DNA of 38,378 nt from a virus: positions 1 through 38,378 of the IMG/VR virus record IMGVR_UViG_3300007519_000032, one strand, 5' to 3'. Of this stretch, positions 34,961-38,190 are shown piece by piece. The stretch's first letter is position 1. Every line of letters starts with the position of its first letter. The notes beneath the pieces are model-generated. The model made no database searches and was not told the origin of the DNA. It saw nothing but the letters and a program-made list of their open reading frames with translations. Position numbers and translations under genes: made by a program.

Positions 34961-35349
34961 GTTTTTCCTTTAGTTTTGGTTGACTTCGCTTTCGTGCGCT
35001 TCGCCTTGGCCCTTTTGGCCCTTAAAGCTTTCTTTTCCTCCGGCGTCTTATGAGCGGGATGGATAAAATCATAAGGCTTTTCTTGGAGGTATATCCAAAG
35101 CCCTAGCAAGCAATCGAGGTAGTCCGCCCCTTGGTTCTTGAGTCCGACCCTTATAAATGCGTTACGGACCTTCCCTTCCCACGAATTCGACGCCCTGCGC
35201 AAAACGCCTCGAACTAGCCCTGTTGCATGGTCATGGTCTAAACAAGGAGAGGACAGCGTAAGGTTACTTATGGGGCAGATCCCCCCTTGCTCGCCGATTA
35301 ACCGCGCTTTAAGCAGCTTGGCGTCTTTTACGGTGAGCTTAGGTTTCAT
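34957..35349 (-). CDS. Endonuclease VII-like (Holliday-junction/recombination) nuclease
   Basis: A 130-aa protein of the recombination endonuclease VII family that resolves branched DNA. The core CLDHDHATGLVRGVLRRASN (about 36-55) contains the His/Asp motif LDHDH and the catalytic Asn region. Usually four zinc Cys flank the core; here only CPIS (Cys25) and a Cys at 36 are present, and the CxxC partners are Ser, so the zinc site may be lost as in a known phage subfamily. The last 25 residues are Lys-rich (KAKRTKAKSTKTKGKT), probably DNA-binding. It is the first gene of the leftward operon after the long regulatory gap. Confidence 0.8.
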   Translation of the reverse strand: MKPKLTVKDAKLLKARLIGEQGGICPISNLTLSSPCLDHDHATGLVRGVLRRASNSWEGKVRNAFIRVGLKNQGADYLDCLLGLWIYLQEKPYDFIHPAHKTPEEKKALRAKRAKAKRTKAKSTKTKGKT

Positions 35350-35642
35350 CTTCTTAATCCTGATCTTCTTTTTTGCTGAGGTAAAGGGTGATTTCCTTGG
35401 TTCAGTGCATTATTACGCTTACTTATCCACGGCTTTCTTGAGCAGTGCTGGTTCTAATCTGGTTCTAATTTGAATCAATTAGAATTAAAAACGCATTAAA
35501 CCGTCCTTGATTACTGAGTAATTAGGCAATAAGGGTTTAATTGGGTTATAAATGATTAGAATCTGTTAAAGTGTTAAATTCTTAACCTCTTAATTCTCCC
35601 CGAATAAGCATATTGTAAAAACGTGCTTCCCTTCGGTTTACA
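35350..35642. promoter_or_regulatory. AT-rich operator/origin-like region upstream of the leftward operon
   Basis: About 290 bp with no convincing gene. The 11-bp unit CTGGTTCTAAT is tandemly duplicated at about 35448-35469. A perfect 8-bp inverted repeat TTCTAATT (35463-35470) / AATTAGAA (35477-35484) with a 6-nt spacer follows, and ATTAGAATC recurs at 35555-35563. The stretch 35460-35600 is very A/T-rich compared with its surroundings. Repeated TTCTAAT/ATTAGAA boxes plus AT-richness suggest operators for an early regulator or an origin. No clear -10/-35 pair was found here. Confidence 0.5.
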
Positions 35643-35756
35643 GAGAGACTTTCTGGCATTTCTGCCAGCTTTTAGCTCTGACGCTGAATCCCCCCGTGGT
35701 CTGCTTCCCTTTCGGATACTTTCGGTCGTTTCTGACCTAGTCGGCTAAAGTCTCTC
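35643..35756. ncRNA. Candidate structured RNA with closing stem and branched interior
   Basis: A 10-bp perfect closing stem joins GAGAGACTTT (35643-35652) and AAAGTCTCTC (35747-35756). Inside, a 6-bp hairpin CTGGCA/TGCCAG (35653-35668, TTTC loop) stacks directly on it. AGC (35673-35675) can pair with GCT (35744-35746), and GGTC/GACC forms another hairpin (about 35724-35737). Multibranched closure over 114 nt without coding potential suggests a folded RNA or a leader element of the early transcript. The active strand is uncertain. Confidence 0.4.
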
Positions 35757-35888
35757 ACAAAGGCCACTAGGATTTTATTCCACAACAGGATCAACGGCGA
35801 GCCTTTTCTATGGGTTCCGCGCCCCATGTCCTTTATTCTAGGCCAAGAGAGCCACGTCAGTTATCGGAGGGTTAATACAACCGCCCGA
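35757..35888. other. Second structured stretch with imperfect stems, no gene
   Basis: No coding frame is convincing. GGCC with a nearby CTAGGA (about 35762-35772) can pair with a later TTCTAGGCC (about 35836-35844) with a bulge. ATGGG and CCCAT (about 35811-35828) form an inner hairpin. TCGGAGGGTT and AACCGCCCGA (about 35863-35888) form a stem with a 2x2 mismatch. With the preceding element this makes a 250-bp highly structured gap. Confidence 0.35.
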
Positions 35889-35904
35889 TCATTATAACGT
35901 AGGC

Positions 35905-35941
35905 AAAAAAAATGCCCCTGAGTGGTAACGCACCCAGAGGC
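35905..35941 (-). terminator. Rho-independent terminator on the minus strand
   Basis: On the minus strand GCCTCTGGGTG and CACTCAGGGGC form an 11-bp stem with two GU pairs (35914-35941), a 6-nt loop and a following run of eight T (35905-35912) after one A. GU pairs work only on the minus strand, fixing the orientation. The terminator precedes the early leftward operon and follows the right-end genes. Confidence 0.8.
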
Positions 35942-35996
35942 TGCGAGTCGGTCCTTAACGGGACAAGACAAGCAAAATCAAAACGCGTTACCGTCT
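35905..35996 (-). ncRNA. Candidate ~90-nt RNA or attenuated leader, promoter to terminator
   Basis: On the minus strand a promoter (36003-36032) is followed only about 90 nt later by an intrinsic terminator, with no gene between. Predicted transcription start is near 35996. The RNA has a small hairpin (GTCC/GGAC at about 35951-35964) and the terminator stem. Its 5' end contains GGTAACGC (35985-35992, minus strand), perfectly complementary to GCGTTACC (35924-35931, minus strand) in the terminator loop, an arrangement for a pseudoknot or antiterminator. It may be a small regulatory RNA or an attenuator controlling the long leftward operon. Confidence 0.45.
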
Positions 35997-36002
35997 ATCC
36001 TT

Positions 36003-36032
36003 ACCCTAGCACAAGGTTTTCGTGGTTGTCAA
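36003..36032 (-). promoter_or_regulatory. Strong candidate sigma70-type promoter, minus strand
   Basis: On the minus strand a perfect TTGACA (36032-36027), an 18-bp spacer and TAGGGT (36008-36003) with an upstream TG (extended -10) form a promoter firing leftward. Its spacer motif CGAAAACCTTGTGC matches the spacer of the promoter at 9743-9772. The TSS would be near 35996. The next gene on the minus strand starts only at 35349, beyond a terminator at 35905-35941. Confidence 0.6.
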
Positions 36033-36048
36033 TCATTTTCTTATTTTC

Positions 36049-36279
36049 TTATTTTCGGATTGCGCCTAGGGTGCATCCGCCGTTAGAGTAATGGGTGATT
36101 CCAAATCGCCCATCGCTTGATTTACTCGGCAACCCCATACCGGAAGCCACCTTGGCCGACAAAACGCTCGCACGGGTATCTAAACCGCCCGTGTCGGGCA
36201 GGCTAGTTACCCCGGCCATGCCGATCTCCCAAAGTTTTGCGGATAAGCCGCTTGATTCATTAGTTAAAGATTCATCCAT
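36049..36279 (-). CDS. Hypothetical early protein (76 aa)
   Basis: A 76-aa protein beginning MDESLTNESSGLSAKLWEIG, Ser/Gly-rich with GVTSLPDTGGLDTRASVLSA and HYSNGGCTLGAIRK at the end. AAGGA lies 6 nt before the ATG, supporting this strand; an overlapping plus-strand frame (36095-36349) has no such site. No known family or membrane segment. It is about 16 bp upstream of the strong leftward promoter, so its 3' end abuts the regulatory region. Not recognised. Confidence 0.55.
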   Translation of the reverse strand: MDESLTNESSGLSAKLWEIGMAGVTSLPDTGGLDTRASVLSAKVASGMGLPSKSSDGRFGITHYSNGGCTLGAIRK

Positions 36280-36351
36280 AAAAGATCCTTGTTTACGTCC
36301 TTACGTTGTTTTTCACGAGGGGAAGAACCTGACTTGGCTCATTCATTAGTG

Positions 36352-36483
36352 TTAATCCTCGCCGCCGCCGTCACGGAGCCATTCGCGCCACTCGCGGCCC
36401 CCGAAAATGTAAGCCAATACCCAGTAAACGCAAGCCAAAAGCGCAAGCGGGACGAATACTATTGATAATAGCGTTTTCTTCAT
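36352..36483 (-). CDS. Small membrane protein (43 aa)
   Basis: A 43-codon gene from ATG 36483 to TAA 36352. The product has a basic start (MKKT), a clear membrane segment at about 5-27 (LLSIVFVPLALLACVYWVLA) and a charged C-terminus REWREWLRDGGGED. It is too short for many gene finders. The overlapping 83-aa frame in 36371-36622 is a shadow. A single-pass early membrane peptide; function unknown. Confidence 0.65.
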   Translation of the reverse strand: MKKTLLSIVFVPLALLACVYWVLAYIFGGREWREWLRDGGGED

Positions 36484-36515
36484 ATTTGTCGGAATTTATG
36501 TTATAAGTTCGCAAC

Positions 36516-36668
36516 TTACTGACAAGAAGCAACTTCCGCGAAGTAACGCCCGAGTTCTTGCGCGGTCTTAACCGAAAGCCAAGAACCTTCCGCTTCGCTG
36601 ACCTGACAGAGCGCGGAAACAACTTCCGCCTCTGTTTCCGTGTCTTCTGGTTTATGCGTGGTTTTCAT
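36516..36668 (-). CDS. Small hypothetical protein (50 aa)
   Basis: A 50-codon gene from ATG 36668 to TAA 36516. It begins MKTTHKPEDTETEAEVVSAL and continues CQVSEAEGSWLSVKTAQELG, with RYFAEVASCQ at the end; the C-terminal half is probably helical. It lies 2 bp after the stop of the next upstream gene and is too short for many gene finders. Tight spacing and good codon pattern support it. Not recognised. Confidence 0.65.
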   Translation of the reverse strand: MKTTHKPEDTETEAEVVSALCQVSEAEGSWLSVKTAQELGRYFAEVASCQ

Positions 36669-36670
36669 CT

Positions 36671-37000
36671 TCAAAAACCCTGAATGACAATTCCTCCATC
36701 GAATTCGATGACTTGCGTATTGTCGCGCAGGTACTCCATCGCGGCCCCTTCTTTTTCGTCCTCTTCTAGGTCGTCAATCCCGGCGTCATACCCAGCGTCA
36801 TTGATGCAGTCTAGGGCTGACACGTATTCTGAGTAGTCGCAGCAAATTGCGATGGGGTCGAATTCAAGCTCTTCACCCCCGTCCTCCTCATATCCTTCTA
36901 GGTATTCGAAAATGGCCTCAAGCGCGGCCCAACTGAAATTTTCGGGCCGGATTTGCTTGAAGCGGTGGCAGAACTGTGAACTGTTGAGTGTTTCTTTCAT
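36671..37000 (-). CDS. Acidic conserved-type early protein (109 aa)
   Basis: A 109-aa strongly acidic protein with EYLEGYEEDGGEELEFDPIA, CCDYSEYVSALDCI and the C-terminal NTQVIEFDGGIVIQGF. The combination FDPIAxCCxYSEY and EFDGGxIIQ is typical, from memory, of a small protein family spread through many phages; its function is unknown. Acidic proteins of this size in early regions can mimic DNA or inhibit host enzymes, but nothing here proves it. It is followed closely by the 50-aa gene. Confidence 0.75.
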   Translation of the reverse strand: MKETLNSSQFCHRFKQIRPENFSWAALEAIFEYLEGYEEDGGEELEFDPIAICCDYSEYVSALDCINDAGYDAGIDDLEEDEKEGAAMEYLRDNTQVIEFDGGIVIQGF

Positions 37001-37047
37001 GATTTTATTTGTTTATTTGTTTGTTTTTTGGTCTTAACGAGAGGGAT

Positions 37048-37125
37048 TCAAAAGCAAGCCGCGAAAAAGAAGGCAAGGGCAATGCCAATCGCGCAGCAAG
37101 CGAGGGTTTCAAGTAGGGCTTTCAT
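37048..37125 (-). CDS. 25-aa membrane peptide
   Basis: A 25-codon gene from ATG 37125, overlapping the preceding gene by ATGA (37122-37125). The peptide is MKALLETLACCAIGIALAFF plus five more hydrophobic or Cys residues, a single membrane span with no tail. It could insert in the inner membrane. It is too short for standard gene finding, but the coupling supports it. Function unknown. Confidence 0.5.
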   Translation of the reverse strand: MKALLETLACCAIGIALAFFFAACF

Positions 37126-37487
37126 TTTGCGGCGTCTAGGGCGTCGGTGTATGCGGCAAAGGCCGCGTCGGCGCGGTCGGATGCGTCTAGGGCGTCGCGA
37201 ACGGCGGCGGCGGCGAGGTCGGCGGCGGCGATTTCAGCGCTTGCTTCGATCATCTCGTAAGCCTCTTCGGAGTAGCCGTTATGGCTCTGCCCCTGAAAGT
37301 GCATTAAAGAGCAGTCGGAGCCATTCCAGACCGCCACGGACATTGAGGATTGGCCGACTTCTTCGGCCCAATATATTTCACCCTCGGCGGTAAGAACTAG
37401 CCGATGCCAATTTGAGCCCATAGACAATTCGTAAGCCGTTGCGGCTTCGGCGGTGATTTCTTCGATGATTTCTTCGATGGTTTTCAT
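37122..37487 (-). CDS. Early protein with alanine-rich C-terminal repeats (121 aa)
   Basis: A 121-aa protein, MKTIEEIIEEITAEAATAYE at the start, with a beta-rich centre (HRLVLTAEGEIYWAEEVGQS; CSLMHFQGQSHNGYSEEAYE) and an Ala/Asp-rich C-terminal helix (about 85-121, AAFAAYTDALDAAK) similar to repeats in the proteins at 33808 and 34724. It has an A-rich leader (about 19 nt) downstream of a hairpin with an AAAAC loop, and overlaps the 25-aa peptide by ATGA. Not recognised. Confidence 0.65.
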   Translation of the reverse strand: MKTIEEIIEEITAEAATAYELSMGSNWHRLVLTAEGEIYWAEEVGQSSMSVAVWNGSDCSLMHFQGQSHNGYSEEAYEMIEASAEIAAADLAAAAVRDALDASDRADAAFAAYTDALDAAK

Positions 37488-37506
37488 TTTGTTTTTGTTT
37501 GTTTTT

Positions 37507-37562
37507 CCGGCACGTTTTGCGCCGGATTGAGAGCATCATTCAGATCAGCGCAAGAGCGTCAA
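37507..37562 (-). promoter_or_regulatory. Promoter and 5'-leader hairpin module, copy 1
   Basis: On the minus strand CTTGACGC (37563-37556), with TTGACG at 37562-37557, is followed 16 bp later by AATGAT (a 4/6 -10) and, 31 bp further downstream of the motif, a hairpin CCGGCGC / GTGCCGG (37525-37507) with loop AAAAC. An A-rich stretch then leads to the ATG at 37487. The hairpin and leader closely match the module at 38230-38248. Confidence 0.5.
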
Positions 37563-37683
37563 GCACTTTTCTATTTATTTTTTCCGCCGCCCCCCAAGCA
37601 TCATGCACAGTAAACTCGATCAGTGTATCCTGCATCACCCACTAATCACGGCACCTTAAGCAACGAGCAAGCTCCTAGGTAAG

Positions 37684-37711
37684 GGCAATCAGGCTAGGCT
37701 AGGCAATCAGG
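37684..37711. repeat. 10-bp direct repeat GGCAATCAGG with a CTAGGCTA core
   Basis: GGCAATCAGG occurs at 37684-37693 and at 37702-37711, separated by CTAGGCTA. TGTCGGGC is also duplicated nearby (about 37733-37760). The gap 37563-37890 has no convincing gene and holds only these repeats and the palindromes below. An origin, operator or packaging role is possible but not shown. Confidence 0.65.
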
Positions 37712-37810
37712 TCCGTAATCGTGGAGGGTATGCTGTCGGGCGTAGCGTGTCGGGCCTAAATCGTTCACCCTCCCTCCCCCACTAAGCCAGAAAACCCCGT
37801 GTTTTTTCGC

Positions 37811-37824
37811 GACTTACATAAGTG
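37811..37824. promoter_or_regulatory. Palindromic operator-like site, copy 1
   Basis: GACTTACATAAGTG, a near-perfect 14-bp palindrome, pairs with the perfect copy at 37872-37885. Start-to-start spacing is 61 bp, close to six helical turns, so both sites face the same side of the helix. This suits a dimeric regulator binding cooperatively or looping DNA. Confidence 0.55.
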
Positions 37825-37865
37825 CCCTGTTTTTCGTTTCATAGGTAAAAGGCAACATTGTCCAC

Positions 37866-37898
37866 CGTGCCGACTTACGTAAGTCATTTTTGGGCACG
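37866..37898. promoter_or_regulatory. Palindromic operator-like site, copy 2, nested in an outer repeat
   Basis: GACTTACGTAAGTC (37872-37885) is a perfect 14-bp palindrome. It is framed by CGTGCC (37866-37871) and GGCACG (37893-37898), giving a nested palindrome or cruciform. Both features lie between two minus-strand genes, just past the terminator. A binding site for a repressor, or an origin element, is likely; the regulator could be the nearby winged-helix protein. Confidence 0.6.
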
Positions 37899-37924
37899 AA
37901 AAAAGCCGCCCGGTGAGGAGCGGC
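37899..37924 (-). terminator. Rho-independent terminator after the right-end gene
   Basis: On the minus strand GCCGC and GCGGC (37924-37905) form a 5-bp stem around a 10-nt loop, followed by a run of six T (37904-37899). It closes the transcript of the winged-helix-like gene at 37951-38190, and sits immediately before the nested palindrome. Confidence 0.7.
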
Positions 37925-37950
37925 CTTGGCTTGGTTAAGGTTGCGAGAGG

Positions 37951-38190
37951 TTAGTCTAGTTGAATTTCATGGCTCGCCGCTAGGGCGCGGCCTGCCCCCG
38001 TGAAGCAAATCCATGTATTTCCCTCGGCAGTCTGTGTTCTGATTAGCCCTGCCTGTTTGAGTTGCGTGAGGTTCCCGCGGCCCTCGACGTCACCGCCGAC
38101 ATTGCCGCCCACCAGAGGTGTGCCAGACCAGTTTCCCGCGTCGCGTGCGTAGGCGAGGAAGAGTTCGAGTGATTTGCTAGTAATGCTCAT
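37951..38190 (-). CDS. Winged-helix-like early regulator (79 aa)
   Basis: A 79-aa protein beginning MSITSKSLELFLAYARDAGN and containing WSGTPLVGGNVGG, GRGNLTQLKQAGLIRTQTAE and GNTWICFTGAGRALA. The GNLTxLKxAGL and following strand-turn-strand pattern resembles small winged-helix proteins found in many phages, from memory, and probably binds DNA. It is the rightmost gene, with a leader hairpin shared with the gene at 37487, and is followed by a terminator and by palindromic operator-like sites. It is a good candidate for the regulator acting at those sites, but this is inference. Confidence 0.7.
   Translation of the reverse strand: MSITSKSLELFLAYARDAGNWSGTPLVGGNVGGDVEGRGNLTQLKQAGLIRTQTAEGNTWICFTGAGRALAASHEIQLD

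Follow-up and report, generated by a model that had tools for sequence, protein, structure and literature searches.

In this work, a short non-coding RNA unit was recognized on the minus strand of the virus record IMGVR_UViG_3300007519_000032, whose whole stretch of 38,378 bases was analysed and is called the window here. Judged by sequence comparison, this unit is a member of a conserved RNA family whose pseudoknot is formed by covarying kissing loops, and the candidate RNA appears to be encoded by the window phage and by more than a dozen relatives. A 5' hairpin and the hairpin of an intrinsic terminator carry 6-7-nt loops which, as shown by comparison of the relatives, are predicted to form a complete Watson-Crick kissing helix.

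Promoter, terminator and fold of the unit

By direct reading of the minus strand, a -35 element TTGACA (36027-36032) is followed after an 18-nt spacer by a -10 element TAGGGT (36003-36008) with TGC immediately 5' of it (extended -10), as the earlier note on this DNA had described. The -10 element matches TATAAT at only three of the six positions, which is why the promoter is absent from the consensus-scan list. The putative RNA would start at about 35996 and end at 35905 (minus strand), an extent consistent with the match to the relatives-only model R1 described below, and would thus be about 92 nt long (92-94 nt were folded). The terminator that had been placed about 90 nt past the promoter is also present: the 92-nt unit (35996-35905) ends in a strong terminator with a tract of eight T (35905-35912), and no ORF of at least 60 aa lies between promoter and terminator, in agreement with the claim that no gene is found there. 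The unit was further said to stand upstream of the whole leftward replication operon. The operon does lie downstream in the same direction, its first gene starting at 35349, which is 556 nt beyond the terminator and past another possibly structured stretch. As leftward ORFs (36049-38190) also occur upstream, the unit is inside the leftward region and not at its head. The leftward block comprises a DnaB-like helicase, an exonuclease, a methyltransferase and an endonuclease VII, and the window also encodes an SU10-like major capsid protein and portal and a large terminase.

The RNA is predicted to fold into three hairpins (MFE -33.8 kcal/mol, z -3.6). The first, H1 (35981-35996, minus strand), has the stem AGACG/CGUUU and the loop GUAACG (35991-35986), and H2 (GUCC-CGUUAA-GGAC, 35951-35964) is located in the linker. 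The terminator hairpin H3 (35914-35941), obtained both from the fold and from the terminator scan, has an 11-bp stem (35941-35931/35924-35914) and the loop CGUUAC (35930-35925), which pairs letter for letter with that of H1. The 8-nt complement reported previously, in which GGTAACGC (35992-35985) pairs perfectly with GCGTTACC (35931-35924), therefore corresponds to two exactly matching hairpin loops, and the window unit shows the defining feature of the family, namely perfect complementarity between the loop of its 5' hairpin and that of its own terminator. Both 6-nt loop cores are wholly unpaired in the predicted fold. Since the complement is centred on these two loops, the predicted geometry is that of a kissing loop and not of a stem swap. 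When the 55-nt upstream segment was shuffled with its dinucleotides preserved, a match of at least 8 nt to the loop region arose in 63 of 20,000 shuffles (about 0.3%). Such a frequency is low, yet for a feature selected by eye it leaves room for an ordinary promoter and terminator with a chance complement, the unit merely insulating the operon from upstream transcription. The window sequence alone is only suggestive, and the case for the pseudoknot rests on covariation in the relatives.

Relatives of the unit

Relatives were collected with the terminase as query, which gave 80 loci in IMG/VR. The longer records from these loci were searched for the helicase, present in 17 of 42, and the regions preceding the operon were then compared. 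No blast-level similarity was found between these upstream stretches and the window unit. A terminator scan of the same stretches yielded homologous terminators, upstream of which there is a like arrangement with different loops. The set was widened by pattern scans and by a descriptor based on a hairpin loop complementary to the terminator loop. Applied to 1.3 Mb of related DNA, this descriptor gave 14 hits, which include the units (two of the hits, L015 and L132, are isolated and non-members by context, and several others are one place under two locus names), and no hit was obtained in block-shuffled DNA. Related uncultured podovirus contigs bear the unit upstream of the helicase operon.

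At least ten distinct loop pairs occur across the family, all of them perfectly complementary. The 6-nt pairs of type 1 are GUAACG/CGUUAC (the window), GUGACU/AGUCAC, CUGACA/UGUCAG, AUGACA/UGUCAU and AUGACG/CGUCAU, and the 7-nt pairs of type 2 are GUACAAG/CUUGUAC, GAACUAG/CUAGUUC, GAAUCAG/CUGAUUC, GUACUAG/CUAGUAC and GAACAAG/CUUGUUC. The predicted RNA is longer in the relatives (105-110 nt, versus about 92 nt in the window), and the linker in the units measures 40-55 nt. The promoter of the relatives has the form AAACC-NN-TTGACA-12-TATAATCC, with TTGACA only 12 nt before TATAAT-like boxes, a spacing which departs from the 18 nt of the window and from the usual sigma-70 spacing. In several relatives the motif runs into the 3' end of the gene that precedes it, whose stop codon is the TAA of TATAAT; the motif is nevertheless kept outside the upstream gene in L136 and L146, so coding constraint alone does not account for it. 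The T tract is weaker in some relatives (CTTTCTT, TTTTCTTTT).

The nearest relatives of the helicase (L099, L107 and L108, 53-54% identity) have no kissing-terminator unit; a candidate in L099 was rejected because it is the terminator of a gene and the matching hairpin lies within an ORF. Relatives of the neighbouring gene p109 are without the unit as well. At a similar place in L111 and L112 (G013 and G016), a promoter-like TTGACG/16/TATGGT is followed by about 100 nt, a strong terminator and a long, apparently structured noncoding stretch, and no kissing loop complement was found in this promoter-terminator stretch. In L124 (G043), two inverted copies of the unit with different loop types were observed together with two helicases in opposite orientation. 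Its interpretation as one phage with two copies was dropped, since the opposed helicases indicate a probably chimeric or inverted assembly. An exact-pattern search of IMG/VR for the window terminator and a search of IMG/VR with the helicase as query gave no match, and no endonuclease VII was found in the records from the terminase query.

Covariation of the loop pair

A covarying complement in related phages, which the earlier note had named as a check on its proposal, was found. In type 1 (n = 6), H1, the kissing helix and H3 together comprise 132 cells, every one of them paired, and seven pairs are changed on both sides, although kinship among the sequences inflates such counts and independent events are fewer than cells. 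Standard pairing of H1 is kept in all six sequences, three of the six pairs of the kissing helix are changed on both sides, and so are three pairs of the H3 stem, which is 100% paired. Pairing of the kissing helix is likewise 100% in type 2 (n = 10), and three of its seven pairs carry changes on both sides; the middle hairpin is variable there, and a shared helix tested at this position pairs in 68% of cells only. The covariation score was reached by no shuffle, and sliding the partners by 1-3 columns lowers the pairing to 36-57%. Because the loop letters change in step between phages, the contact can be regarded as real, and the ten different perfect loop pairs cannot, as sequences, be explained by inheritance alone. 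The pseudoknot, which had been put forward as one of two options, is thus strongly supported by the covarying loop pairs. Furthermore, 12 cells of type 1 are G-U on the leftward strand, where every cell is paired; they would be A-C mismatches on the opposite strand, and the leftward strand is therefore the RNA.

Homology was also examined with the covariance model R1, made from five type 1 relatives with the window left out. Its best match in the window is 36001-35908 (37.7 bits, E 5.5e-7), and the next has E 1.6; E-values of such models are rough, but this gap is wide. Given this homology and the covariation over ten loop types, a chance complement between an ordinary promoter and terminator is very improbable. 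The matches of the model to type 2 are not convincing (E 0.35-0.8), so the link between type 1 and type 2 rests on position, promoter, architecture and the downstream RNA.

The other option raised for the complement, a competing antiterminator that opens the stem, is unsupported. In half of the ten loop types (type 2), the complement coincides with the 7-nt loops and enters neither stem, and in type 1 it reaches, on each side, one or two closing pairs beyond the loops. A complement of this extent would not displace the 11-bp terminator stem, and the MFE structure retains the terminator. No alternative pairing that displaces the terminator stem, as in a classical attenuator, was found in the unit. 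The supported geometry is that of a predicted kissing complex which leaves both stems intact.

Neighbouring noncoding stretches

In most relatives (e.g., L106, L104, L102, L149, L151, L157, L101 and L110), a second noncoding region of about 300 nt begins within a few bases of the terminator. The first domain of this downstream RNA consists of four helices, one of them a pseudoknot; all of its 135 cells are paired, and 17 double changes were counted. The model of this RNA (R2) finds 29 places in the related set, and it matches neither the window nor L100, in which an 86-aa ORF stands between the unit and the leader. A scan of genome contigs with the downstream motif gave no match. The later part of the downstream RNA falls into two sequence classes, which have been swapped between contigs.

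Outside the unit, at the position of the covarying downstream RNA of the relatives, a candidate structured stretch of the window (35643-35758) is enclosed by a 10-bp perfect inverted repeat (GAGAGACTTT/AAAGTCTCTC) and contains, on the minus strand, several small hairpins with GAAA loops. Compared with shuffles its fold is modestly more stable (z -2.7, and z -2.9 for the other strand), so neither strand is singled out. A likeness to signal recognition particle RNA, noticed by eye, was abandoned as no Rfam match was obtained for it even at E 10. Just upstream of the endonuclease VII gene, the A+T-rich stretch 35448-35600 carries a tandem 11-nt repeat (CTGGTTCTAAT) and inverted repeats (TTCTAATT/AATTAGAA) and is a possible replication origin or operator. 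Elsewhere in the related set, a second conserved promoter-like motif consists of TTGACA, an 18-nt spacer and TACAATCCATACGC (L101, L103, L110, L115, L154, L156, L159-L162 and others); in L101 it stands, in the rightward direction, ahead of a small gene before the terminase. Long G runs at both ends of the contig (1-30 and 38350-38378) are likely sequencing or assembly artefacts, and the genes at the ends need careful reading.

Possible function of the RNA

The earlier note had left the choice between a small regulatory RNA and an attenuation switch of the operon. The sequence data fit either function. We lean towards a stand-alone, kissing-locked phage small RNA, and hypothesize that the unit encodes a short non-coding phage RNA, transcribed from its own promoter and terminated at its own intrinsic terminator. 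In this process, the 5' hairpin would fold first and its loop would capture that of the terminator upon emergence from the polymerase. H1, the kissing helix and the terminator stem would then form a rod that ties both ends of the RNA together, and the compact molecule, resistant to unfolding and to exonucleases, could act as a separate small RNA in infection. With less certainty, the loop contact may also tune read-through towards the leader and replication operon that follow. A free small RNA is preferred because of the own promoter, the own terminator and the modular conservation. In the window and L100 the unit persists with a different downstream module, which favours an autonomous RNA and a separable module. 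In L104 and L106, the loop word has no conspicuous third partner in the vicinity of the unit, the word being only as frequent as the two loops. On the other hand, several observations count against the stand-alone RNA, namely the loop-word counts in L056 and L110 (four versus about one expected), the poor -10 element of the window, the TTGACA only 12 nt from TATAAT in the relatives, the fixed place before a structured leader and operon, and the weak T tracts. The last two also fit a role in cis.

Such a role would be that of a regulated terminator, in which contact with the 5' hairpin alters termination and determines how much transcription passes through the structured leader to the replication operon, and a phage or host factor, or the stage of infection, could shift the balance. 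It is the chief rival reading but a rather unlikely one. The relatives do have a covarying structured RNA a few nt after the terminator and then the operon in the same direction, and the T tracts of several members are imperfect. Moreover, in several relatives the T tract can pair with A-rich sequence just downstream, e.g., CUUUUG/CAAAAG in L136 and CUUUUU/AAAAAG in L101, so a read-through RNA would fold differently. However, the type 2 kissing complement stays outside the terminator stem, and hence no classical antiterminator is formed, and conservation of the downstream module does not extend to the window or L100. Unlikely, too, is a new class of phage RNA in which the upstream hairpin docks on the loop of the nascent intrinsic terminator and controls termination, while the loop pair drifts under selection for self-recognition only.

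Comparison with known systems

Nothing credible was found in Rfam at gathering and permissive thresholds for the window and for the relatives L106, L146 and L100. The family spanning the unit most closely in the permissive search was the PyrR-type attenuator RF00515, which scored 18.2 bits (E 7.6) where 54 are required; this chance match arises because both have hairpins followed by a terminator. In cultured phages, megablast and distant blastn gave only small fragments of the kind expected by chance, 5% of the query in all. In the open-access literature, searched at the level of titles and abstracts, no comparable unit was found to be described. From its sequence we judge it to be a new RNA family that varies the known themes of kissing loops, promoter-terminator units and phage small RNAs.

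The pRNA of phi29-type phages, itself a phage RNA about 100-170 nt long, has two complementary loops whose sequences covary among the phages that carry it, and the present RNA resembles it in these loops. Unlike in pRNA, one of the loops is here the terminator loop and the kissing helix has 6-7 bp, and the window phage, which has an ordinary terminase, is not of the phi29 kind. As in that system, pairing between molecules might produce dimers or rings for packaging, replication or another assembly, with loop drift separating related phages. Loop identity indeed differs between otherwise similar units, and covariation is blind to whether pairing occurs within one molecule or between identical molecules. 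We nevertheless consider this improbable, since the linker of 40-55 nt permits simple pairing inside one molecule, the large terminase is of ordinary length (548 aa), and the phi29 pRNA family RF00044 gave no match at the gathering threshold in the window or at E up to 10 in 35350-36100.

The PR'-tR' (6S RNA) units of lambda consist of a promoter, a short untranslated RNA, a terminator and then an operon, and are read through with Q. The window unit has the same order of elements; unlike PR'-tR', it precedes replication genes and not late genes, and a conserved 5' hairpin that kisses the terminator is not known for the lambda unit. The put element of HK022 is a 5' hairpin in a phage leader RNA that acts on the polymerase and on many terminators. 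The 5' hairpin described here could likewise influence termination in cis, although it would pair specifically with the loop of the single following terminator. In ColE1 RNAI-RNAII and other antisense kissing pairs, complementary loops of 6-7 nt drift in pairs. The recognition between loops, their length and the paired drift are shared with our unit, but the partners come from opposite strands in those systems, whereas here both loops are in one transcript.

The finding marks a noncoding locus in a widespread, uncultured group of podoviruses, whose relatives bear a second pseudoknotted RNA. It represents a conserved candidate phage RNA whose architecture is unusual and well supported, in which the terminator hairpin is part of a tertiary fold beyond its use as a stop signal. 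With about 100 nt and interchangeable loop pairs, the unit may serve as a system for asking whether co-transcriptional tertiary contacts can set the strength of a terminator or protect the ends of an RNA.
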